This document shows positions 5,465-31,150 of a stretch of DNA of 32,377 nt, piece after piece. The first letter of the stretch is position 1; every line of letters begins with the position of its first letter. This DNA is from Candidatus Dormiibacterota bacterium. GTDB lineage: Bacteria > Chloroflexota > Dormibacteria > Aeolococcales > Aeolococcaceae. The stretch is from positions 111,939-144,315 of the forward strand of contig PLOF01000074.1 of the NCBI GenBank assembly GCA_003142035.1, given 5' to 3'. The translations under genes and the position numbers were made by a program. The notes below the pieces were generated by a model that saw only the letters and a list, made by a program, of their open reading frames with translations, was not told the origin of the DNA and did not search any database.

Positions 5465-6160
5465 ATGCCCCGCACGTGGCCGCGATGCCTCAACGGTGTG
5501 GTGATCGCCCCCTCGCTGCTCGCCGCCGACTTCGGACGGCTCGCCGAGGCGGTGCACGCCCTGGAGGGGGCTGGCGCCGACCGCCTCCACATCGACGTGA
5601 TGGACGGAGCCTTCGTGCCCAACTTCACCTTCGGAACCGACACCCTGCGGGCGCTCCGTGGGGAGACGGATCTCCCCTTCGAGGTCCATCTGATGGTCCA
5701 GGAACCGGACCGGCACCTGCGCACCTTCGCCGAGGCAGGCGCCGACGCCATGACCGTGCACTGGGAGGCGTGCCCGCACCTGCACCGGACGCTCGTGAAC
5801 ATCCGGGCCCTCGGCTGCCGGGCCGGCGGGGCGGTCAACGTGAGCACCCCGGCACAGAGCCTCTACGACGTCCTGGAGGTCATGGACCTGGCCCTGGTGA
5901 TGACCGTGGACCCCGGCTTTGGTGGACAGTCCCTGATCCCCCGCGCCCTGGCCAAGGTCGCCGAGCTGCGCCGCGAGATCGACGCCCAGGGCGTGGCGGT
6001 CGAGCTGGAGGTCGATGGGGGCGTGGACACCGGCAACGCCGCCCTCTGCGCCGGCGCCGGTGCCACGGTGCTGGTGGCGGGCACCTCGGTCTTCCGCGAT
6101 CCGGAGGGCCCGGGGCATGGGGTCCGCCAGCTCTTGGAGGTTGCCGCCCCCCTGGGCTGA
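5465..6160 (+). CDS. rpe: Ribulose-phosphate 3-epimerase
   Basis: A 231-residue TIM-barrel enzyme interconverting ribulose-5-phosphate and xylulose-5-phosphate in the non-oxidative pentose-phosphate pathway. The N-terminal signature IAPSLLAADFGRLAE is followed by HIDVMDGAFVPN (42-53). Later come EVHLMV, MTVDPGFGGQS and EVDGGV, all diagnostic. An upstream in-frame ATG at 5345 would add 40 non-homologous residues. ATG 5465 fits the family length and lies 6 bases after a TANNNT box, suggesting leaderless translation. It is monocistronic or first in its unit, close to the tal-pgi-zwf-pgl operon. Function is confident. Confidence 0.94.
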   Translation: MPRTWPRCLNGVVIAPSLLAADFGRLAEAVHALEGAGADRLHIDVMDGAFVPNFTFGTDTLRALRGETDLPFEVHLMVQEPDRHLRTFAEAGADAMTVHWEACPHLHRTLVNIRALGCRAGGAVNVSTPAQSLYDVLEVMDLALVMTVDPGFGGQSLIPRALAKVAELRREIDAQGVAVELEVDGGVDTGNAALCAGAGATVLVAGTSVFRDPEGPGHGVRQLLEVAAPLG

Positions 6161-6277
6161 TCGGCGCGAAAGCCGCCGGCGATGGGTAAGGATCACGGCA
6201 AACGCTTCAGGAGCCCCGATTGAGGGTCATGGATATGACTCAGATCGTTCACGGCGTTCATCACCCCAGGCCCCATC

Positions 6278-8764
6278 GTGGGTATGGTCATGGGTTTCCC
6301 TCCGTTCTGGCGTCTGCCGCAGCATCTCCAGACGCGGTTCCGCGTCGCCACGCTCATGCTCGTCATCCCCCTCGTCGCCGTGGGGGCGGTGGGCGCGGTG
6401 GGGGCCGTGGTCAGCGTCCACGCGACCTCGGTGCTGACGGCGCAGAGCGACGATTCGGCCCAGATCCAGGCCCTGCAGGTGCAGGTCCAGGACGTCGCGC
6501 TGGACGGTATGGCCTTCATGGCCACGGGGCAGATCGATCAGCTCTCCGCCATGCGGACGCGCGAGGGTGCGGTCGAGAGCGCACTGGTACGCCTGGCCGC
6601 ATTGCCGACGCTCGGCGCCGGCGAGCGTCCGGGTCTGGCCGGCGCCAAGAAGGCATGGGAAGCCTCCCTGATCGCCCGGAACGAGGTCGAGACGCTGCCC
6701 ACCGCCATCAACACCGCCCTCGTCACCAGCTCGGTCGCCTTCTATTTCAGCTACGTCATCTCGGACGTCTCCTCGCAGCTCCAGAGCGCACTCCAGGCCA
6801 GCCGCGCCGAAGTGGTCTCGATCCAGAAGGAACAGCAGAATGATCAGACGGCCTGGGAGGCCGCCATCCTGGCCGCGCTCCTCGTCGGCGTGCTGTGGGC
6901 GTTCTGGACCTCCCGCCGGCTGACCCGCTCGATCCTCCCGCCCCTCTCCCTCCTGCGCGACGCCTCCCAGCGCCTCGCCAGCGGTGACCTCGCTCATCGC
7001 GTCGACATCGACCTGGACGACGAGGTCGGGGAGGTGGTGCGCGGCTTCAACGTCATGGCGGACGAGCTGCTCGAGCAGCGGAACACCATCCTCCAGCGCG
7101 AGGGACGGCTGATGGCTCTGGTGGAGAAGGCCAGCGACAACATCCTGATCATCGATGCCCGCGAGCAGGTGGTCTTCTCCACCCCGTCCTTCCGCACTGA
7201 CTACATGGACACCTCCAGCGACACCTCGATGCTGCAGGCGCGCATCCACCCTGGAGACCAGGAGACGGTGCACCGCTGCTGGCAGCGGACCACGACCGGC
7301 GGCGCGGGCACAACCTCCGAGGTGGAGGTGCGGATGCGTCGCCGAGATGGCGAGTGGCGCCACATCTGGGTGAGGCTCACCAACCACCTGAACGACCCGG
7401 CGGTGCAAGGGGTGGTCGTCAACCTGAACGACGTCAGCGAGCGCCACGAGTATGAGGAGCGCCTGAGCCGCCAGGCCCTCCACGACGGCCTCACCTCGCT
7501 GGCCAATCGAACCCTCTTCATCGGGCGTCTGGAGCGCACCGCGTCGGACGGGCGGGGTCGCGGCGCACTCAGCGTCCTTTTCATCGACCTCGACGACTTC
7601 AAGGGCGTCAACGACAGCCTCGGCCACCAGGCCGGTGACGCGCTTCTGATCGCGGTGGCGCGGAGGTTGGTTGCCTCCGTGCGCCCCGAGGACACCGTCG
7701 CCCGCGTCGGCGGCGACGAGTTCGCCATCCTCTTGGAGAACACGAAGCCGCGCGAGGCGGTGATCGCCGCCCAGCGCATCCTGGGCGCACTGGCCCTCCC
7801 CGTCGTCCTCGAGGGGCGGGAGGTACAGCCGAGTGCGAGCCTCGGGGTGGCGTCATCGCGCGACGGGAACGCCGGCACGCTGCTGATCGATGCCGACCTG
7901 GCGATGTACTTCGCAAAGCGGGACGGCAAGAACAGCTACCGGGTCTTCGAGCCCGCGATGCGCGCCGGGCGGCTGGAGCGGCTGCAGCTCGGCGAGGACC
8001 TCCGCGCCGCGCTCACGGCCGGCGACGTGACCGTCGACTACCAGCCGATCGTCGATCTGCGCACCGATGACATCGTCGGGGTCGAGGCGCTGGCACGGTG
8101 GCAGCACCCGTCGCAAGGCCGGCTCGGACCGGCTGTCTTCGTTCCCCTGGCCGAGGAGATCGGCGCGGCCACGGAGCTGGACCTGTACGTCATGGAGCGC
8201 GCGTGCCGGCAGGTCCGGGGGTGGAACGAAGCCGGGGTCCCGAACCTCCGCCTGGCCGTCAACCTCTCGGGGAACGACCTCACCTCACGCGACCTGGTGC
8301 CCGGCGTGACGCGCATTCTCGCGACGACCGGGCTGGCGCCGGATCAGCTGGAACTGGAGGTCACCGAGAGCGCTGCCGTCGTCGAGACATCCAGCGTCCA
8401 GGAGGTGCTGGCGCAGTTGAAGGAGCTCGGGGTGCACCTGGCGATCGACGACTTCGGCACCGGCTACTCGGCGCTGGGCCGCCTTCGCAGCCTGCCCTTC
8501 GAGCGCCTCAAGATCGACCGGTCGGTCATCGGGGAACTGCACAACGACACGGGACGGACCACCTTGGTCGACACCATCCTGGACCTCGCCCATGTCATGG
8601 GGCTGCAGGTGGTGGCGGAGGGGGTGGAGTCCTCCAGCCAGCTGGACCAGCTCCGCAAGCGGCACTGCGACCTCGCCCAGGGGAACCTCTTCGGTGAGCC
8701 GGTCGAGGCGGCCGTACTCGAGCCGCTGCTGCTCAAGCGGGTGGTTGCGAGCCGGCCAACCTAG
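6278..8764 (+). CDS. Membrane GGDEF-EAL c-di-GMP synthase/phosphodiesterase (HAMP-PAS-GGDEF-EAL)
   Basis: An 828-residue sensor-type c-di-GMP enzyme. Order: membrane helix at about 23-48; an extracytoplasmic helical sensor at about 50-190; a second helix at about 194-211; HAMP at about 212-268; PAS at about 276-390; GGDEF at about 397-560; EAL at about 575-820. The cyclase motif is intact (GGDEF 478-482), and the inhibitory I-site RxxD (RPED 469-472) sits the canonical five residues before it. The phosphodiesterase motifs EAL (603-605), DDFGTGYS (724-731) and KIDRS (745-749) are also intact, so both activities are possible. The start is uncertain among GTG 6278, ATG 6284 and ATG 6290, none with a good ribosome site. 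The stop lies in a CTAG shared with the convergent glgP. Confidence 0.93.
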   Translation: MGMVMGFPPFWRLPQHLQTRFRVATLMLVIPLVAVGAVGAVGAVVSVHATSVLTAQSDDSAQIQALQVQVQDVALDGMAFMATGQIDQLSAMRTREGAVESALVRLAALPTLGAGERPGLAGAKKAWEASLIARNEVETLPTAINTALVTSSVAFYFSYVISDVSSQLQSALQASRAEVVSIQKEQQNDQTAWEAAILAALLVGVLWAFWTSRRLTRSILPPLSLLRDASQRLASGDLAHRVDIDLDDEVGEVVRGFNVMADELLEQRNTILQREGRLMALVEKASDNILIIDAREQVVFSTPSFRTDYMDTSSDTSMLQARIHPGDQETVHRCWQRTTTGGAGTTSEVEVRMRRRDGEWRHIWVRLTNHLNDPAVQGVVVNLNDVSERHEYEERLSRQALHDGLTSLANRTLFIGRLERTASDGRGRGALSVLFIDLDDFKGVNDSLGHQAGDALLIAVARRLVASVRPEDTVARVGGDEFAILLENTKPREAVIAAQRILGALALPVVLEGREVQPSASLGVASSRDGNAGTLLIDADLAMYFAKRDGKNSYRVFEPAMRAGRLERLQLGEDLRAALTAGDVTVDYQPIVDLRTDDIVGVEALARWQHPSQGRLGPAVFVPLAEEIGAATELDLYVMERACRQVRGWNEAGVPNLRLAVNLSGNDLTSRDLVPGVTRILATTGLAPDQLELEVTESAAVVETSSVQEVLAQLKELGVHLAIDDFGTGYSALGRLRSLPFERLKIDRSVIGELHNDTGRTTLVDTILDLAHVMGLQVVAEGVESSSQLDQLRKRHCDLAQGNLFGEPVEAAVLEPLLLKRVVASRPT

Positions 8765-10929
8765 ACAAGGTCGTACGCGTCGTCGATGTAGTCGAGGAGC
8801 ATCCGCGTCGCCGAGAACTGGGGGCCGATGCTCATCAGCGAGCGCTTGACCATGGCGATCCAGCCGTGGGGGACGCCGTCCGCGCCGCGGTCGTAGAAGA
8901 GGGGCACGACCTCGTTCTGGAGGACGTCGAAGAAGACGGAGGCATCGCGCTGGTCCTGGACGTGGGTGTCGAAGGCGACATCGCCGGGCAACCCCCAGCC
9001 GTTGGTGCCGTCGAATCCCTCCACCCACCAGCCGTCCAGGGTGGAGAGGTTGAGGCCGCCGTTCATGGCGGCCTTCATCCCGCTGGTGCCGCTCGCCTCC
9101 AGCGGCGGGCGGGGCAGATTGATCCAGAGGTCGCAGCCGCCGACCATCTGGAGCGCGATGGCGAGGTCGTAGTTGTCCAGGAAGGAGATCCGCTCGGCCG
9201 AACGGGGATCGTTCTTGAGGGCAAAGAGCCCCTGTGGGGAGCGCTTGCCCTCCTCATCGCTGGGGTGGGCCTTGCCGGCCACCAGGAACTGGACCGGAAG
9301 GGTCGAGCCGTCGAGCACGTCGCGGAGCCGCTGGGGGTCGGTGAAGAGCAGGTAGAGCCGCTTGTAGGTGGCGAGACGGCGGGCGAAGCCGATGGTGAGC
9401 GCGTGCTCGGTCAGGCCTCGCTCCGCCGCCTCCACGTACTCGCGAGGGTCGCTGCGGTCGAGGCGGTTGGCGATGGTCCGGTCGCGGGCCATCTCGACGA
9501 GCGCGGCGCGCTGGGTGTTGCGCACCTCCCACAGCTCCTCGTCGGGGATCCCCTCGACCGCCTTCCACGTCCTGGGGTCGGAGGCCCGCCCGACCCACCC
9601 CTCGCCGAGGTACCGGTCCAGCAGGCGGCGCATCGGAGTGCCCATCCAGGTGGGGAGGTGAACACCGTTGGTGACGTGGCTGATGGGGACGGTGTCGGCG
9701 GGGCGCTCGGGGAAGAGTGGCTGCCACATCTGGCGCGCCACCTCGCCATGGCGCCGGCTGACCCCGTTGGCGAACCGGCTCATTTTGATCCCGAGTGGGG
9801 TCATGACGAAGGGCTCGTGCGGGTTGTCCGGTTGGGTCCGTCCCAGCTGGAGGAAGCCGGCGTCGTCGAGGCCGACCTGGGAGGGATAGTCACCGAGGAC
9901 TGATTGGACCTCTGAGACGTCATACCCCTCGTTGCCCGCGGCCACCGGGGTGTGGGTGGTGAAGACCGTTCTCTCGCGGGCCAGCGCGAAGGCGGTCGAG
10001 CGGTCGTGCCCGGCGAGCATCTCGGTGCGGGCCAGCTCCAGGGGGGCCAGCCCGCCATGTCCCTCGTTGAGGTGGACGATGCAGGGGTCGATCCCCATCG
10101 CGCGCAGAGCCCGCACGGAGCCGATCCCGAGCAGCGCGTACTGGGCGAGACGAATCGCCCGGTCGGCGACGTACAGCCGGCCGGTGATCCAGCGGTCGAC
10201 CCGCCCGTTCTCCGGCCGTTCGGCGTCGAGGAGATAGAGCGGGGTCCGGCCCACCTCCACGCGCCAGACCTGGACCACCACCTCGCGGCCACGGAGGGGC
10301 ACCGGGACGGTGAGCGGGGTGCCGTCCGGCCCGAGCACCAGGGCGGCGGGGAGACGCTCGGGGTCCACCGGCCGCCAGTACTCGTGCTGGTACCCGCTCC
10401 CATCGGTGCGCTGCAGGAAGTACCCCTCTCGATAGAGGAGGCCGACCCCGACCATGGGGAGGGCCAGGTCGGAGGCCTCCTTGAGGATGTCCCCGGCCAG
10501 CACCCCCAGCCCCCCGGCGTAGATGGGCAACGAGCGGTGGATCCCGAACTCGGCGCAGAGGAAGGCGACGGGATGCCTCTCGGACGCCCGGCTCGCCAGC
10601 GGCGGACGGGCCAGCTCGGCGGTGAGCCGGCCCAGCATCGCCTCGGCGCGGCCGATCAGCAGGTCATCGCCGACCGCCCGCTGCAGCGCCTTCGAGGAGG
10701 TCTCGGTGAGGAGGCGGATCGGATTGCCGTTGCAGAGCTCCCAGCGCTGGGGATCGATGGCCTGGAAGAGATCCTCGGCATCCGGGTCCCAGGACCACAG
10801 GTAGTTGTAGGCGATCTGGGCGAAGGGGGCGAGCCGCGCAGGCAGACGCTCGGCAAGGGCGCCGGCCGCCGCCGCGATGTCGGCACGGCCGTCGAGGAGT
10901 GGGGACGCCGCCGGCAACGCCTGGTCCAT
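8761..10929 (-). CDS. glgP: Alpha-glucan (glycogen) phosphorylase, short type
   Basis: A 722-residue PLP enzyme releasing glucose-1-phosphate from storage alpha-glucans. The N-terminal PF11897-like segment (LPARLAPFAQIAYNYLWSWD) and the length mark the shorter TIGR02094-type phosphorylases rather than E. coli GlgP of about 800 residues. Other motifs are CAEFGIHRSLPIYAGGLGVLAGD, HLNEGHGGL and HVTNGVHLPTW. The PLP signature EASGTSGMKAAMNGG has its Schiff-base lysine at about residue 619. The start ATG 10929 has a TACCAT box ending 10 bases upstream on the minus strand, so the leader would be very short. It converges on the GGDEF-EAL gene (shared CTAG stops) and is divergent from the degenerate GGDEF gene. 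Confidence 0.94.
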   Translation of the reverse strand: MDQALPAASPLLDGRADIAAAAGALAERLPARLAPFAQIAYNYLWSWDPDAEDLFQAIDPQRWELCNGNPIRLLTETSSKALQRAVGDDLLIGRAEAMLGRLTAELARPPLASRASERHPVAFLCAEFGIHRSLPIYAGGLGVLAGDILKEASDLALPMVGVGLLYREGYFLQRTDGSGYQHEYWRPVDPERLPAALVLGPDGTPLTVPVPLRGREVVVQVWRVEVGRTPLYLLDAERPENGRVDRWITGRLYVADRAIRLAQYALLGIGSVRALRAMGIDPCIVHLNEGHGGLAPLELARTEMLAGHDRSTAFALARERTVFTTHTPVAAGNEGYDVSEVQSVLGDYPSQVGLDDAGFLQLGRTQPDNPHEPFVMTPLGIKMSRFANGVSRRHGEVARQMWQPLFPERPADTVPISHVTNGVHLPTWMGTPMRRLLDRYLGEGWVGRASDPRTWKAVEGIPDEELWEVRNTQRAALVEMARDRTIANRLDRSDPREYVEAAERGLTEHALTIGFARRLATYKRLYLLFTDPQRLRDVLDGSTLPVQFLVAGKAHPSDEEGKRSPQGLFALKNDPRSAERISFLDNYDLAIALQMVGGCDLWINLPRPPLEASGTSGMKAAMNGGLNLSTLDGWWVEGFDGTNGWGLPGDVAFDTHVQDQRDASVFFDVLQNEVVPLFYDRGADGVPHGWIAMVKRSLMSIGPQFSATRMLLDYIDDAYDLV

Positions 10930-11103
10930 GGGTCTGGCGATGGTACCAGCAGGGCTAAGGCAGCCCAGCGACGGCCTGCCGCGTGGGGCAACCCGGTGAC
11001 ACTTCGGTTCGGATTACCGCGCCCTCTTCACGGGCTGTTCGAAGAACGACCACGACCCATGACAGGGGAATGATGTCGATGCGTCTGACCCGTGTAGTGC
11101 GTT

Positions 11104-11115
11104 TAGCCTACGAGG
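11104..11115 (+). promoter_or_regulatory. Putative -10 box of a leaderless transcript for the degenerate-GGDEF gene
   Basis: TAGCCT at 11104-11109 is followed by 6 bases (ACGAGG) and ATG 11116. The position matches a leaderless start, although the GAGG directly before the ATG could be misread as a ribosome site with no spacing. There is no good -35. Confidence 0.45.
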
Positions 11116-12129
11116 ATGCAACGTGAGGTCACCTCCCTGAACCGGCGTGTCCCGCTGACCGTGGTCGACGCCTCCGACCTGGACTGCATCCCCGAGAGGG
11201 GGACGGAGTGGGCCGACGCGCTCTCCGAGGCGGCGCTCCAGCTGGTGCGCTCGGCCAGCGAGGCGGAGGTGGCCGCTGCCATCCGGACGGCGGCCACCAC
11301 GCTGGCGCCGGGCAGCCCGGTCCGGGTCGCCTCCTCGAGCCCCGGCGGCTGGCACCTGATCCTCGCCCAGGACCCCGACGAGGAGACCCTCCTCCGCCTC
11401 CCGCTCCGGGCCGGCGGCACCCTTCTCGGGGAGCTGTCGGTGCTCGGCGCCGTGCCCCTCCCCGCGGTCCAGGCGACCGCCATCGCGGAGCTCGCATCCC
11501 ATGCCGCGCTCGCTCTGGCCCGCCTCGAGTACGGACAGCTGATCAGCGGTGTCACCCCCGGCCAGGACGACCCGGAGATCTTCGCAGCCACGTCCTTCCG
11601 CGATCCCCTCACCAACCTCCCGAGCCGGATGCTCTTTCACGATCGGGTGGAGCACGCCCTCCACCGGCGGTCGCGGCACGTCCATCCGGTCGCGGTCATG
11701 GTCATCGACCTGGCCGGTTCCATCACGGCCGTCAAGCAGGGGATGGGGGATGATGCCGCCGACCGGCTGATGGTGCAGGTCGCCAAGCGGCTCCAGCACC
11801 TGGTCCGCTCGGCCGACAGCCTCGCCCGTCTGCGCGAGGACCAGCTGGGTGCCCTCCTCGACGACCTCGACAGCGCGGCGGACGCCGGCCTCGTCGCCGA
11901 GCGGCTGGTGGGGGCGCTGAGCATGCCGTTTGTCCTCGAGAGCGATGTCCCGGTCTCGCTCCAGGCTTACGTCGGCATCGCGGTCAACTCCGGCGCCGCG
12001 GAGTCGGCGGTCGAGCTGCTCCACAAGGCGGGGAAAACGGCGCAGGCGGCGCGCGAGCGCGGGGTGGGCTTCGAGGCCAACCCGGGACGGCCACGCGTCC
12101 ACGTCAAGGCCCGATCCGCGCGCTCCTAG
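11116..12129 (+). CDS. GAF-like plus degenerate GGDEF-domain protein
   Basis: A 337-residue cytoplasmic protein. Residues about 30-140 look like a GAF-type sensor (alpha/beta, ending in ATAIAELASHAALALARLEYG). Residues 160-330 follow the GGDEF fold: FRDPLTNLPSRMLFHDRVEHAL replaces the usual DxLTGLxNR start, and VMVIDLAG replaces the metal-binding strand. At the GGDEF position the sequence is RLREDQLGALL (R240-E-D-Q-L244), so the signature glycines are lost and cyclase activity is unlikely. The RxxD I-site is recognisable only as RSAD (231-234), six rather than five residues before the altered motif. It may act as a c-di-GMP effector or a scaffold (inference). It is divergent from glgP and 88 bases upstream of aceE. 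Confidence 0.75.
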   Translation: MQREVTSLNRRVPLTVVDASDLDCIPERGTEWADALSEAALQLVRSASEAEVAAAIRTAATTLAPGSPVRVASSSPGGWHLILAQDPDEETLLRLPLRAGGTLLGELSVLGAVPLPAVQATAIAELASHAALALARLEYGQLISGVTPGQDDPEIFAATSFRDPLTNLPSRMLFHDRVEHALHRRSRHVHPVAVMVIDLAGSITAVKQGMGDDAADRLMVQVAKRLQHLVRSADSLARLREDQLGALLDDLDSAADAGLVAERLVGALSMPFVLESDVPVSLQAYVGIAVNSGAAESAVELLHKAGKTAQAARERGVGFEANPGRPRVHVKARSARS

Positions 12130-12217
12130 CCCCGGGCTGGACGGCGTCCTGGTCGACGCCAAGTCGAGTAGGCTCTTGGGAGGGGGTGGTCAGGAAGCCC
12201 CCTCTCAGCGAGGACTT

Positions 12218-14899
12218 ATGACCTTCGACGCCTTTCTCCAGCAGCTCCCCGACGCCGATCCCGACGAGACCGCAGAGTGGCTGGAATCACTCGACAACCT
12301 GGTCGCCACAGAGGGCGCGAGCCGTGCCCGGTACGTCATCGGCAAGCTGCTGGCCCGGGCCAAGCGCCTTCAGGTCGGCATCCCGGCGATGGTCCAGAGC
12401 GCCTTCATCAACACCATCCCGCCCGAGGAGGAGCCCTGGTTCCCCGGCGACGAGGCGATGGAGCGCCGCATCCGCCGGATCGTCCGCTGGAACGCGGCGG
12501 TCATGGTGGCCCGGGCCAACAAGAAGTTCGACGGCATCGGTGGCCACCTCTCGACCTACGCCTCGTCGGCGTCCCTCTACGAGGTCGGCTTCAACCACTT
12601 CTTCCGGGGCAAGGACGACGGCAGGCCGGGCGACCAGGTCTTCTATCAGGGGCACGCGGCTCCGGGCATCTACTCCCGCGCCTTCCTCGAGGGCCGGCTC
12701 AGCAAGGACCAGCTCGACCACTTCCGCCGCGAGACGGCGGGACGCGGCCTCAGCTCGTATCCGCACCCGCGGCTTCTGCCCGAGTTCTGGGAGTTCCCAA
12801 CGGTCTCCATGGGCATCGGGCCCCTCAACGCGATCTACCAAGCACGATTCAATCGCTACCTCTACAACCGGCAGCTGGTCGACACGTCGGAGTCGCGGGT
12901 CTGGGCCTTCCTCGGCGACGGTGAGTGCGATGAGCCGGAGGCGATCGGCGCTCTCTCGCTCGCAGCGCGCGAGGGTCTCGACAACCTCACCTTCGTCATC
13001 TCCTGCAACCTGCAGCGCCTCGACGGTCCGGTCCGGGGCAACAGCAAGGTCATCCAGGAGCTGGAGTCGATCTTCCGCGGCGCCGGCTGGAACGTCATCA
13101 AGGTGATCTGGGGCAGGGAGTGGGATCCGCTGCTCGCCCAGGATGCCGACGGCGTCCTGGTCAATCAGATGAACACCACCAACGACGGGCAGTTCCAGAA
13201 GTACGCTGTCGAATCCGGCGCCTACATCCGCGAGCACTTCTTTGGGCCCGACCCACGGCTCCGCAAGCTGGTGGCTCATCTCTCCGACGAGGACCTGCCC
13301 CGGCTGCGGCGCGGCGGCCACGACTACCGGAAGCTCTACTCCGCCTACAAGCTGGCAGTGGAGCAGAAGGAGATCCCCACCGTCATCCTCGCCCACACCA
13401 TCAAGGGCTGGACCCTCGGCCAGCAGTTCGAGGGGCGCAACGCCACCCACCAGCTCAAGAAGTTCACCGAAACCGAGCTGCGGGCGTTCCGCGACCGCAT
13501 CCAGCTGCCCATCACCGACAAGCAACTCTCCGAGGGCCTGCCCCCCTACTACCACCCCGGGCCAAAGTCACCCGAGGTCGAGTACCTGATGAGCCGGCGG
13601 CTCGCCCTGGGCGGGCCGGTGCCGCGGCGGAACGTGGTCTCCAAGAAGCTGGACGGTCCGGATGACGGCGCCTGGGACGACTCGTTCAAGGGGTCGGGAG
13701 GCCGGGCCGCGTCGACCACCGCCGCCTTCACCGCCATCCTCCGCAACCTCCTCCGCGACAAGAGCATCGGGCGTCGGATCGTCCCCATCATCCCCGACGA
13801 GGCGCGCACCTTCGGCATGGACGCGCTCTTCCGCGAGGTCAAGATCTACGCGGCCCACGGCCAGCAGTACGAGCCGGTCGACGCCGAGATGGTGCTCAGC
13901 TACAGCGAGGCGAAGGACGGGCAGATGCTCGAGGAGGGCATCACCGAGTCGGGCGCGATGGGCTCCTTCACCGCCGCCGGCACCGCCTACTCGACCTTCG
14001 GCGAGCCGATGATCCCCTTCTACATCTACTACTCGATGTTCGGCTACCAGCGGGTCGGCGACCTGATCTGGGCCTTCGCCGACTCCCGCGGACGCGGCTT
14101 CATGCTCGGCGGGACGGCGGGGCGCACCACCCTGAACGGCGAGGGCCTGCAGCACCAGGACGGCCACTCGCCGCTCCTCTTCTCGGTCCTCCCCCACGTG
14201 CGCGTCTACGACCCCGCTTACGCCTACGAGCTGGCGGTGATCCTCCGTGAGGGTATCCAGCGGATGTGCCGCAACGACGGCGACGCCCTCTACTACCTCA
14301 CCCTCTACAACGAGAACATCGTCCAGCCGCCCAAGCCGGACGGCGTCGATGACGCCATCCTGCGCGGCCTCTACCTGCTGCGGCCAGCGCCGGTCGAGAA
14401 GAAGCACCGGGCCACCATCCTCGCCAGCGGACCGGCGGTGGCGGCAGCGCTCACCGCCCAGGAGCGCCTGGCCGAGAACAACGACGTCGCCGCCGACGTA
14501 TGGAGCGTCACCAGCTACCAGCAGCTCCGCAACGACGCCCTCGAGGTGGAGCGGTGGAACCGGCTGCACCCGGAGCAGGAGCCGCGCATCTCGCACATCG
14601 CGGAGCAACTGGGCGAGCGTCCGGGACCGATCGTCGCCGTCACCGACTACGTCAAGGCGGTGTCCGACCAGGTGGCCAGATTCGTCCACCAGGAGTTCAT
14701 CCCCCTGGGGACCGACGGCTTCGGCCGGAGCGATACGCGGCAGGCGCTGCGGCGCCACTTCGAGACCGACGCCGAGCACGTCACGGTCGCGGTGCTGGAT
14801 GGATTGGCCCGCGCCGGGGAGATCCCCCGCCACGAGGTCGCCGCCGCTCTGGAGCAGTACGAGATCGACACCGAGCTGCCCGAGCCGCGGGTGCGGTAG
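12218..14899 (+). CDS. aceE: Pyruvate dehydrogenase E1 component (homodimeric type)
   Basis: An 893-residue thiamine-diphosphate enzyme that decarboxylates pyruvate and passes the acetyl group to the lipoyl E2. The order is typical of AceE: N-terminal NxI/GGHLSTYASSASLYEVGFNHFFRG, then the ThDP/Mg motif GDGECDEPE (233-241) with NLQRLDG about 25 residues on. The middle segment EARTFGMDALFREVKIYA and the C-terminal transketolase_C-like region (VWSVTSYQQLRNDALEVERWN) follow. The frame is open upstream, but homology starts at MTFDAFLQQLPDADPDETAEW. ATG 12218 has GAGGA at 12210-12214. TAGGCT (12169-12174) could be the -10. No E2 or E3 gene is in the window, so they are encoded elsewhere, as in many actinobacteria. 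Confidence 0.96.
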   Translation: MTFDAFLQQLPDADPDETAEWLESLDNLVATEGASRARYVIGKLLARAKRLQVGIPAMVQSAFINTIPPEEEPWFPGDEAMERRIRRIVRWNAAVMVARANKKFDGIGGHLSTYASSASLYEVGFNHFFRGKDDGRPGDQVFYQGHAAPGIYSRAFLEGRLSKDQLDHFRRETAGRGLSSYPHPRLLPEFWEFPTVSMGIGPLNAIYQARFNRYLYNRQLVDTSESRVWAFLGDGECDEPEAIGALSLAAREGLDNLTFVISCNLQRLDGPVRGNSKVIQELESIFRGAGWNVIKVIWGREWDPLLAQDADGVLVNQMNTTNDGQFQKYAVESGAYIREHFFGPDPRLRKLVAHLSDEDLPRLRRGGHDYRKLYSAYKLAVEQKEIPTVILAHTIKGWTLGQQFEGRNATHQLKKFTETELRAFRDRIQLPITDKQLSEGLPPYYHPGPKSPEVEYLMSRRLALGGPVPRRNVVSKKLDGPDDGAWDDSFKGSGGRAASTTAAFTAILRNLLRDKSIGRRIVPIIPDEARTFGMDALFREVKIYAAHGQQYEPVDAEMVLSYSEAKDGQMLEEGITESGAMGSFTAAGTAYSTFGEPMIPFYIYYSMFGYQRVGDLIWAFADSRGRGFMLGGTAGRTTLNGEGLQHQDGHSPLLFSVLPHVRVYDPAYAYELAVILREGIQRMCRNDGDALYYLTLYNENIVQPPKPDGVDDAILRGLYLLRPAPVEKKHRATILASGPAVAAALTAQERLAENNDVAADVWSVTSYQQLRNDALEVERWNRLHPEQEPRISHIAEQLGERPGPIVAVTDYVKAVSDQVARFVHQEFIPLGTDGFGRSDTRQALRRHFETDAEHVTVAVLDGLARAGEIPRHEVAAALEQYEIDTELPEPRVR

Positions 14900-30560: not shown

Positions 30561-30794
30561 TCAGCCCGCCCCGCAGCCGCACGCACCACCACAACACCCA
30601 CCTCCGGCCGAGGTTCCGGGACGGTCGGAGGCACCCGCCTTTCCTCCCACCAGCATCCCCACACGGCTGATCAGGGGCATGCTCGCGCGGCTCTCGCAGC
30701 GGGGACAGACGGCCGCCAGCTCACGCTGCGCCATCGGACGCACCACCTCGTAGACGGCGGTGCAGTCTTTGCAGCGGTACTCGTAGAGGGGCAC
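30561..30794 (-). CDS. FmdB-type zinc-ribbon protein
   Basis: A 77-residue protein starting at GTG 30794 (VPLYEYRCKDC), the classic FmdB/CxxC_CXXC_SSSS N-terminus. Zinc ligands are C8/C11 and C30/C33. The hydrophobic SMPLISRVGMLVGG segment follows, then a Gly/Cys-rich tail (GGGCCGGACGCGAG). The frame extends upstream to 30974, but those 60 residues are Arg/Pro-rich and would run across the promoter and LexA box of the divergent gene. TACCCT on the minus strand ends 4 bases before the GTG and may be its -10. The family has no firm role; regulatory or metal-related roles have been proposed. Confidence 0.88.
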   Translation of the reverse strand: MPLYEYRCKDCTAVYEVVRPMAQRELAAVCPRCESRASMPLISRVGMLVGGKAGASDRPGTSAGGGCCGGACGCGAG

Positions 30795-30821
30795 TCGCTC
30801 AGGGTACCGAAGTGGGGGAGT

Positions 30822-30850
30822 TTGACATGCGAACATAAGTTCGCTACCAT
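30822..30850 (+). promoter_or_regulatory. Near-consensus sigma70 promoter, leaderless
   Basis: TTGACA (30822-30827), a 17-base spacer, then TACCAT (30845-30850). The ATG at 30857 is 6 bases after the -10, so transcription would begin on the start codon. This is the only perfect -35 I found in the window. The whole spacer is occupied by a LexA-type palindrome. Confidence 0.78.
30829..30844. promoter_or_regulatory. LexA (SOS) box GCGAAC-ATAA-GTTCGC
   Basis: A 6-bp perfect inverted repeat around a 4-base centre, containing CGAAC-N4-GTTCG, the core of the Gram-positive/actinobacterial LexA operator. It fills the space between -35 and -10, so bound LexA would block RNA polymerase. It is nearer the plus-strand gene; the divergent FmdB gene starts 35 bases away on the other side. 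lexA itself is not in the window. Confidence 0.72.
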
Positions 30851-30856
30851 GTGGGC

Positions 30857-31150
30857 ATGGCCGCACTCGGGACGATCGAGTTGGAGCTACCCCTCGGCGA
30901 CGGACCGACGGGAGAGCTGGCGAGCCGGCGGCTGGGCCACGTCCGCCAGATCGTTGGCGATGATGGCGACGCACTCCTGCGGCTGGCCGCAGCCTTCCCC
31001 AACCTGGCTGCTATGTACGCGGCATCCGAGGAGGAGCTGAGCCGCGTGGTCGGCCCGATCGCCGCCGCCCGGATCCGCTGGTTCCTCGACGCTCCGCTGG
31101 CGACCAGCCTGGCGCCCCGGCACCTGAGAGCGCTCGCCCAAGCGGCCTGA
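30857..31150 (+). CDS. Small helix-hairpin-helix-like protein, probably SOS-regulated
   Basis: A 97-residue protein. Residues 42-80 (RLAAAFPNLAAMYAASEEELSRVVGPIAAARIRWFLDAP) follow the pattern of HhH repeats at the end of UvrC or the start of RadC: a helix, a 'gap/score' segment F-x-x-L-x-x-x-x-x-A-S-x-E-E-L, then the hairpin. The usual G-I-G-P hairpin is changed to VVGP. No catalytic domain is present, so it may be a DNA-binding adaptor (inference). ATG 30857 is preferred over the in-frame GTG 30851 because it lies 6 bases after the -10. The promoter contains a LexA box, pointing to induction by DNA damage. I cannot assign a named family. Confidence 0.76.
   Translation: MAALGTIELELPLGDGPTGELASRRLGHVRQIVGDDGDALLRLAAAFPNLAAMYAASEEELSRVVGPIAAARIRWFLDAPLATSLAPRHLRALAQAA

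Follow-up and report, generated by a model that had tools for sequence, protein, structure and literature searches.

A gene encoding a 97-residue protein (30857..31150, + strand, stop codon at 31148-31150) in the 32,377-nucleotide stretch of Candidatus Dormiibacterota DNA analyzed here, hereafter the window, raises two questions: whether it belongs to the SOS response, and what a protein of this size could contribute to it. The assembly that contains the window (G000) is 2.55 Mb in size and 90% complete. The promoter of the gene comprises the -35 hexamer TTGACA (30822..30827, + strand), a 17-nt spacer (30828-30844) that holds GCGAACATAAGTTCGC at 30829-30844, and the -10 hexamer TACCAT (30845..30850, + strand), which lies 6 nt 5' of the ATG at 30857 in a leaderless geometry. 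The putative LexA operator GCGAAC-ATAA-GTTCGC (30829..30844, no strand assigned; core CGAAC-N4-GTTCG at 30830-30843) occupies the spacer and, lying between the -35 and -10 elements, overlaps the promoter. This layout, including the distance from the -10 element to the ATG, is exactly as the first-pass annotation had read it.

A single box of this kind is weak evidence. From base composition, about 2.3 perfect CGAAC-N4-GTTCG sites are expected per genome and four were found, one of them inside the tmRNA gene; with at most one mismatch, about 1.3 sites are expected in the window, where the promoter box is the single occurrence. A lone perfect box is thus no better than chance, and the reality of the operator rests on its conservation. 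Orthologous upstream regions were readable in 26 genomes of 12 genera (G029 was excluded because of Ns in its upstream region), and the palindrome was perfect in 25 of them and carried one mismatch in the other. When one sequence per genus was compared, the box columns were invariant across the 12 genera. The distance from box to start codon was 13 nt in 24 of the 26 regions, 12 nt in one, and 14 nt in one. The orthologous promoters also keep the box between a -35 element of the form TTG(A/C), with TTGAC or TTGCN at the matching place, and a -10 element of the form TAnnnT directly after the box. A chance palindrome with no role as a LexA site, for which the genomic counts might speak, is ruled out by this conservation at fixed spacing and by the occurrence of this motif before lexA and recA as well; we give it practically no weight.

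The coding sequence is conserved along with the box. The gene was searched for in the 50 genomes of the order and, by profile, in the 110 genomes of the class. Among the 50 genomes of the order, it was found in 26, all of the family Aeolococcaceae (f1), and in none of the sister family f2. The class-wide profile search added a copy in G019 that runs off the contig end, bringing the total to 27 of 32 Aeolococcaceae genomes; its matches beyond the family were weak and lay within large frames. Against two congeners, 21-23 of the 26-28 differences in the open reading frame fall at codon position 3, indicating purifying selection. The start codon at +13 is conserved in relatives as ATG, with GTG in one, and an in-frame GTG at 30851 was rejected as the start on this ground. 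Synteny is conserved in the order rnhB, divergent fmdB, small gene, and membrane protein gene. The small gene had no match in viral contigs or in the PHROGs and PADLOC collections, and a mobile or phage origin was rejected on this basis together with the conserved chromosomal synteny.

Five Aeolococcaceae genomes lack a detected copy (G015, G009, G006, G021, and G022). True loss was rejected for three of them, since contigs break at the locus in G015 and G009 and no rnhB was detectable in G006. Genus g11 (G021 and G022) is the only genus in which the rnhB-fmdB part of the locus is present and the small gene is absent, and a search of its genomes gave no LexA winged-helix match above the cut-off. 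In g11, an S24 peptidase gene adjoins a Y-family polymerase gene in a UmuDC-like arrangement, and a clean pairing of LexA loss with gene loss in this genus is weakened by that S24-type gene.

On the other side of the operator lies a divergent gene for an FmdB-type zinc-ribbon protein (30561..30794, - strand), identified by Pfam Zn_ribbon_8 (E=3e-11) and by synteny. This gene appears to be leaderless too, with TACCCT-GAGCGA-GTG on the minus strand (window 30795-30810), so that a stretch of about 60 bp around a single operator contains both gene starts, and it may share the operator region with the small gene. Could the operator serve chiefly the fmdB-type gene, with the small protein incidental? 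On the opposite strand, fmdB begins at a distance of 35 nt from the box; the gene is a conserved neighbor with a TACCCT-N6-GTG leaderless promoter of its own. We nevertheless consider this very unlikely, since the box lies exactly in the promoter spacer of the small gene at an invariant spacing (within the 12-14 nt given above) to its ATG. Moreover, fmdB is about 1 kb away in two relatives (L051 and L058) and was not found beside the gene in three others (L055, L056, and L059), while box and small gene stay together in all five.

The box also matches the motif found before the core SOS genes of the same genome. Two tandem boxes, CGAACATACGTCAG and GGAACATCCGTTTG, lie upstream of lexA, and one box, CGTACATCTGTTCG, upstream of recA. 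Two further tandem boxes, CGAACAGATGTACG and CAAACATGGGTTCG, are located upstream of imuA, in the promoter of an imuA-imuB-dnaE2 type cassette (L060, G000:C111, ~5970-12380); the ImuB of this cassette carries a QVDLW clamp-type motif. Comparison of the window-gene box (CGAACATAAGTTCG) with those of lexA, recA, and imuA showed that it matches the genome's own LexA motif. A like box was found in the lexA promoters of all 22 readable family members, some 80-100 bp upstream of the first codons that are conserved. Genome-wide, at two or fewer mismatches, CGAACATnnGTTCG was found 73/82 times vs 28/36 when the pattern was reversed as a control. In G000, an NN assembly gap (L007, ~1402) breaks the lexA frame, and for this reason the LexA DNA-binding domain escaped detection there.

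Matching boxes, perfect or with one mismatch, were identified before four additional repair genes. Those preceding uvrA (L107, G000:C143, 1501-1587) and radA (CGCACATCCGTTCG; L105, G000:C132, 1501-1514, with the radA ATG at 1485 on the minus strand) are probably SOS boxes, and the candidate sites before the Exo VII large-subunit gene xseA (L096, G000:C34, 1501-1581) and a gene for an SbcD-like calcineurin-like metallophosphoesterase (L005, G000:C92, 1501-1522) are weaker cases. The actinobacterial LexA consensus is tCGAAC-N4-GNNCGa (PMC9380542), and actinobacterial SOS boxes share the operator core with the window box, but they belong to another phylum, and the window box occupies the -35/-10 spacer of a gene predicted to be leaderless. 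In our searches, we found no published SOS regulon for the phylum Dormibacterota. Because the box is conserved and matching boxes stand at lexA, recA, and imuA, the small gene can be regarded as a LexA-repressed SOS gene about as surely as sequence alone allows. The first-pass annotation had taken the motif for a LexA operator and the gene for one induced by DNA damage; the operator assignment is borne out by the boxes before lexA, recA, and imuA, and damage induction, expected from the known action of LexA, is well supported by the same boxes and by the conservation of the site.

The promoter geometry also bears on how the mRNA would begin. With the -10 element ending 6 nt before the ATG in the window, transcription would be expected to start at or beside the A of the ATG, and the box-to-start distance of 12-14 nt leaves no space for a leader in any of the 26 readable regions. 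The mRNA of the small gene is therefore predicted to be leaderless, a reading of the first-pass annotation that gains good support from this geometry, fixed in relatives. The further proposal that such an mRNA would remain usable when initiation is impaired found no support: lexA, recA, and imuA have ordinary leaders with SD-like sequences, and radA shares the near-leaderless SOS promoter type. At radA, the box is followed by c-TATACT, 8 nt, and the ATG, which makes it a second near-leaderless SOS promoter of like design. A count of general leaderless frequency (6/41 ORFs) was set aside, as it includes shadow ORFs and chance matches.

According to the AlphaFold models, the product would be a five-helix (HhH)2 domain that stands alone, belongs to the XPF/FAAP24/UvrC type, and is attached to no catalytic domain. 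Invariant residues fall in three segments, namely an N-terminal peptide, a five-helix core (residues 17-80, 30905..31096, + strand), and a C-terminal Ala-Ala. Pfam HHH_2 matched the window protein with E=4e-4, which is below the Pfam gathering score, and relatives with values down to 1.4e-6, while HHH_5 reached 7e-8 in relatives; HHH_2 was matched in 23 of 25 members and HHH_5 in 20 of 25. Two AlphaFold2 runs gave moderate mean pLDDT values (69.5 and 71.6), with 76-90 in the core. In Foldseek searches, the (HhH)2 domains of XPF, FAAP24, ERCC1, and UvrC held the top ranks (probability 0.9-1.0, E ~0.05-1); there was no match at E<=0.001, and the best PDB matches were all (HhH)2 repair domains. 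A profile search of PDB sequences returned FAAP24 (4e-4), Hef (1e-3), and UvrC (4e-3), as well as two topoisomerase V entries with tandem HhH repeats, which had a higher total score and a poor match over any single stretch. No model in NCBIfam, PADLOC, or PHROG describes the protein, and NCBIfam gave weak matches to UvrC, Hef, and LigA. The HhH fold proposed by the first-pass annotation is thus recovered by Pfam, both AlphaFold runs, and Foldseek, and its type is that of the (HhH)2 domains of XPF, FAAP24, and UvrC and not specifically that of RadC. The absence of a catalytic domain, claimed there too, agrees with a length of 97 residues without nuclease domains.

Both hairpin motifs of the small protein are degenerate. 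Motif 1 reads G-[ILVMD]-[DET] and motif 2 V-[VL]-G in the orthologue alignment, and the canonical PG-phi-G hairpin is absent from both. The D/E that replaces the second hairpin glycine in motif 1 makes canonical dsDNA phosphate binding doubtful. The fold assignment is not affected by this; what becomes less secure is canonical DNA binding. FAAP24 and XPF likewise carry degenerate hairpin motifs (PMC3711432). In particular, the pseudo-motif L61-x4-G66-x3-A70 within the (HhH)2 core (+ strand), in which L61 and A70 are invariant and G66 is kept in at least 90% of orthologues, equals the hairpin-less pseudo-motif L195-x4-G200-x3-A204 of FAAP24 (PMC3711432). Both proteins share a non-catalytic five-helix (HhH)2 domain with this pseudo-hairpin as second motif, helix ends of the form F-F/W-F followed by P, and a disordered N-terminal extension. 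FAAP24, in contrast, is eukaryotic and not SOS-regulated; its first hairpin is canonical, and an ERCC4-like domain precedes its (HhH)2 domain. The small protein consists of the (HhH)2 domain alone, flanked on either side by a short peptide. The striking invariance of the signature RWFLDAPL (residues 74-81, + strand, ending at 31099), located at a helix end, suggests that it forms an interface with another protein.

A bacterial counterpart of similar profile and fold is the C-terminal (HhH)2 of UvrC, a DNA repair protein. UvrC differs in having GIY-YIG and RNase H-like nuclease domains, while the small gene stands alone without a nuclease: both the GIY-YIG and the C-terminal endonuclease domains are absent from the 97-residue protein, and a separate full UvrC is encoded in G000. 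The small protein might act in trans as a helper or regulator of UvrABC, its (HhH)2 pairing with or replacing that of UvrC during the SOS response. This would agree with the place of UvrC among the top fold and profile matches, with the SOS box at uvrA in G000, with the C-terminal (HhH)2 of the G000 UvrC, whose second motif is similarly degenerate (SEVVPEVVAQRI), and with the occurrence of (HhH)2 heterodimers in XPF-ERCC1 (PMC3711432). Nevertheless, the small gene is unlinked to uvr genes, and within G000 the profile score of UvrC is no better than that of LigA (23.2 vs 25.6 bits), so we hold a UvrABC helper to be rather unlikely. The same two scores are too close to decide whether UvrC or LigA supplied the parent domain.

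The N-terminal segment points in another direction. Residues 8-13 form the peptide E-L-E-L-P-L (30878..30895, + strand), which is predicted to be disordered; the orthologue consensus is E-[LM]-x-L-P-[LFM] with invariant L-P. The clamp-binding hexapeptide is QL[SP]LPL, and both QLSLPL of Escherichia coli Hda and 4-QFKLPL-9 of Caulobacter HdaA are N-terminal clamp motifs (PMC3836487, PMC12309361). Like Hda and HdaA, the small protein has its L-P-L hexapeptide among residues 1-15; unlike them, it has E for Q at the first position and no AAA+ domain. These similarities, the predicted disorder, and the near-invariance of L-P-L would suit a sliding-clamp accessory in which ELxLPL is a divergent clamp hexapeptide that holds the (HhH)2 core on DnaN where forks have stalled, as a means, for instance, of directing the exchange of polymerases. 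The change of the E. coli clamp motif QADMF to AADMF costs only about 5-fold, which also speaks for such an accessory. Position 1, however, is E in 24 of 25 orthologues, D in one, and never Q, whereas the DinB and ImuB proteins of family genomes keep Q (QLDLF and QVDLW). For this reason, we do not file the small protein as a clamp-binding protein; a clamp accessory seems to us doubtful, slightly more so than a UvrABC helper, and docking of the peptide to the clamp or another hub is possible.

The small protein is unlikely to serve translesion synthesis alone, because G017 (1.5 Mb, 98% complete) has the gene without a Y-family polymerase, which also argues against the clamp accessory. In the same genome, the small HhH gene occurs together with a LexA DNA-binding domain, and no Y-family polymerase match was found. 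A mutasome subunit is unsupported on the same ground, and also because genomes of f2 have two Y-family polymerases each and no small gene.

Proteins that are small, restricted to one lineage, induced in the SOS response, and probably unstable are often checkpoint inhibitors, as in the case of SulA, YneA, and SosA. The small gene fits this pattern and has an Hda-like N-terminus, so that its product might act in a damage checkpoint and, instead of helping repair, slow replication initiation or cell division with the peptide as docking site. We judge this improbable, given that the protein lacks the transmembrane segment that most SOS division inhibitors have, that an (HhH)2 core suggests a role in DNA transactions, and that an AAA+ domain of the kind present in Hda is absent.

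The third conserved segment is the C-terminal Ala-Ala (31142..31147, + strand), a candidate ClpXP degron. It follows a variable tail and occurs in 23 of 25 orthologues (all except G017 and G005), compared with 4 of 87 background ORFs. The tmRNA (ssrA) tag of G000 is ANNAPQLALAA, and its ending in LALAA makes a ClpXP signal plausible for the terminal Ala-Ala, suggesting rapid ClpXP turnover of the protein. E. coli RecN is SOS-induced and is recognized by ClpXP at its C-terminus (PMC10714372). In this respect, the small protein, with its candidate degron, would resemble RecN as an SOS-induced repair protein cleared through a C-terminal signal, but RecN is an SMC-like ATPase of unrelated sequence.

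Taken together, the findings make it probable that the small protein is a previously undescribed, short-lived helper in the response of bacteria to DNA damage, and we favor, with reasonable though far from full confidence, the reading that it is an Aeolococcaceae-specific, LexA-controlled, non-catalytic (HhH)2 protein acting as an SOS repair adaptor. From the known biology of such parts, a LexA dimer bound to CGAAC-N4-GTTCG in the promoter spacer would block RNA polymerase in undamaged cells, and RecA-stimulated cleavage of LexA upon DNA damage would free the promoter. The freed promoter would then yield a leaderless mRNA starting at or beside the ATG and encoding a non-catalytic protein of about 100 residues, with a disordered N-terminal docking peptide, an (HhH)2 core, and a C-terminal Ala-Ala. 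The adaptor might engage damaged or branched DNA, the (HhH)2 module of a repair enzyme, or both, while the N-terminal peptide would bring the bound DNA or enzyme to a replication or repair partner. Once damage is cleared, the protein, marked by its Ala-Ala, would be removed by ClpXP proteolysis. More tentatively, and only as one possibility, the small protein may be a bacterial counterpart of FAAP24, that is, an SOS-inducible, rapidly degraded, free-standing (HhH)2 adaptor that would use its Hda-like peptide to dock on a replisome hub such as the sliding clamp and would flag forks that are stalled or damaged as targets for repair.

An (HhH)2 domain, a LexA operator, and a degron-like tail are ordinary parts, and their combination has not been described before. 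The first-pass annotation knew of no described SOS gene of this shape, and we likewise found none in the literature searched (most subscription journals lay outside its scope), nor any SOS regulon with an adaptor of the architecture proposed for a FAAP24 counterpart. The searches made found the small gene in no lineage beyond Aeolococcaceae.

Members of the Dormibacterota are abundant in soils, including Antarctic desert soils. The present analysis adds a family-wide gene of unusual architecture to the SOS response of this uncultured phylum. The placement of the operator in the promoter spacer, with the coding sequence following at once, would provide a compact case of an SOS-controlled leaderless mRNA. 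If the small protein is indeed a fork or repair adaptor, bacteria, like eukaryotes with FAAP24 and ERCC1, would employ (HhH)2 modules on their own as partners that are regulated and lack catalytic activity.
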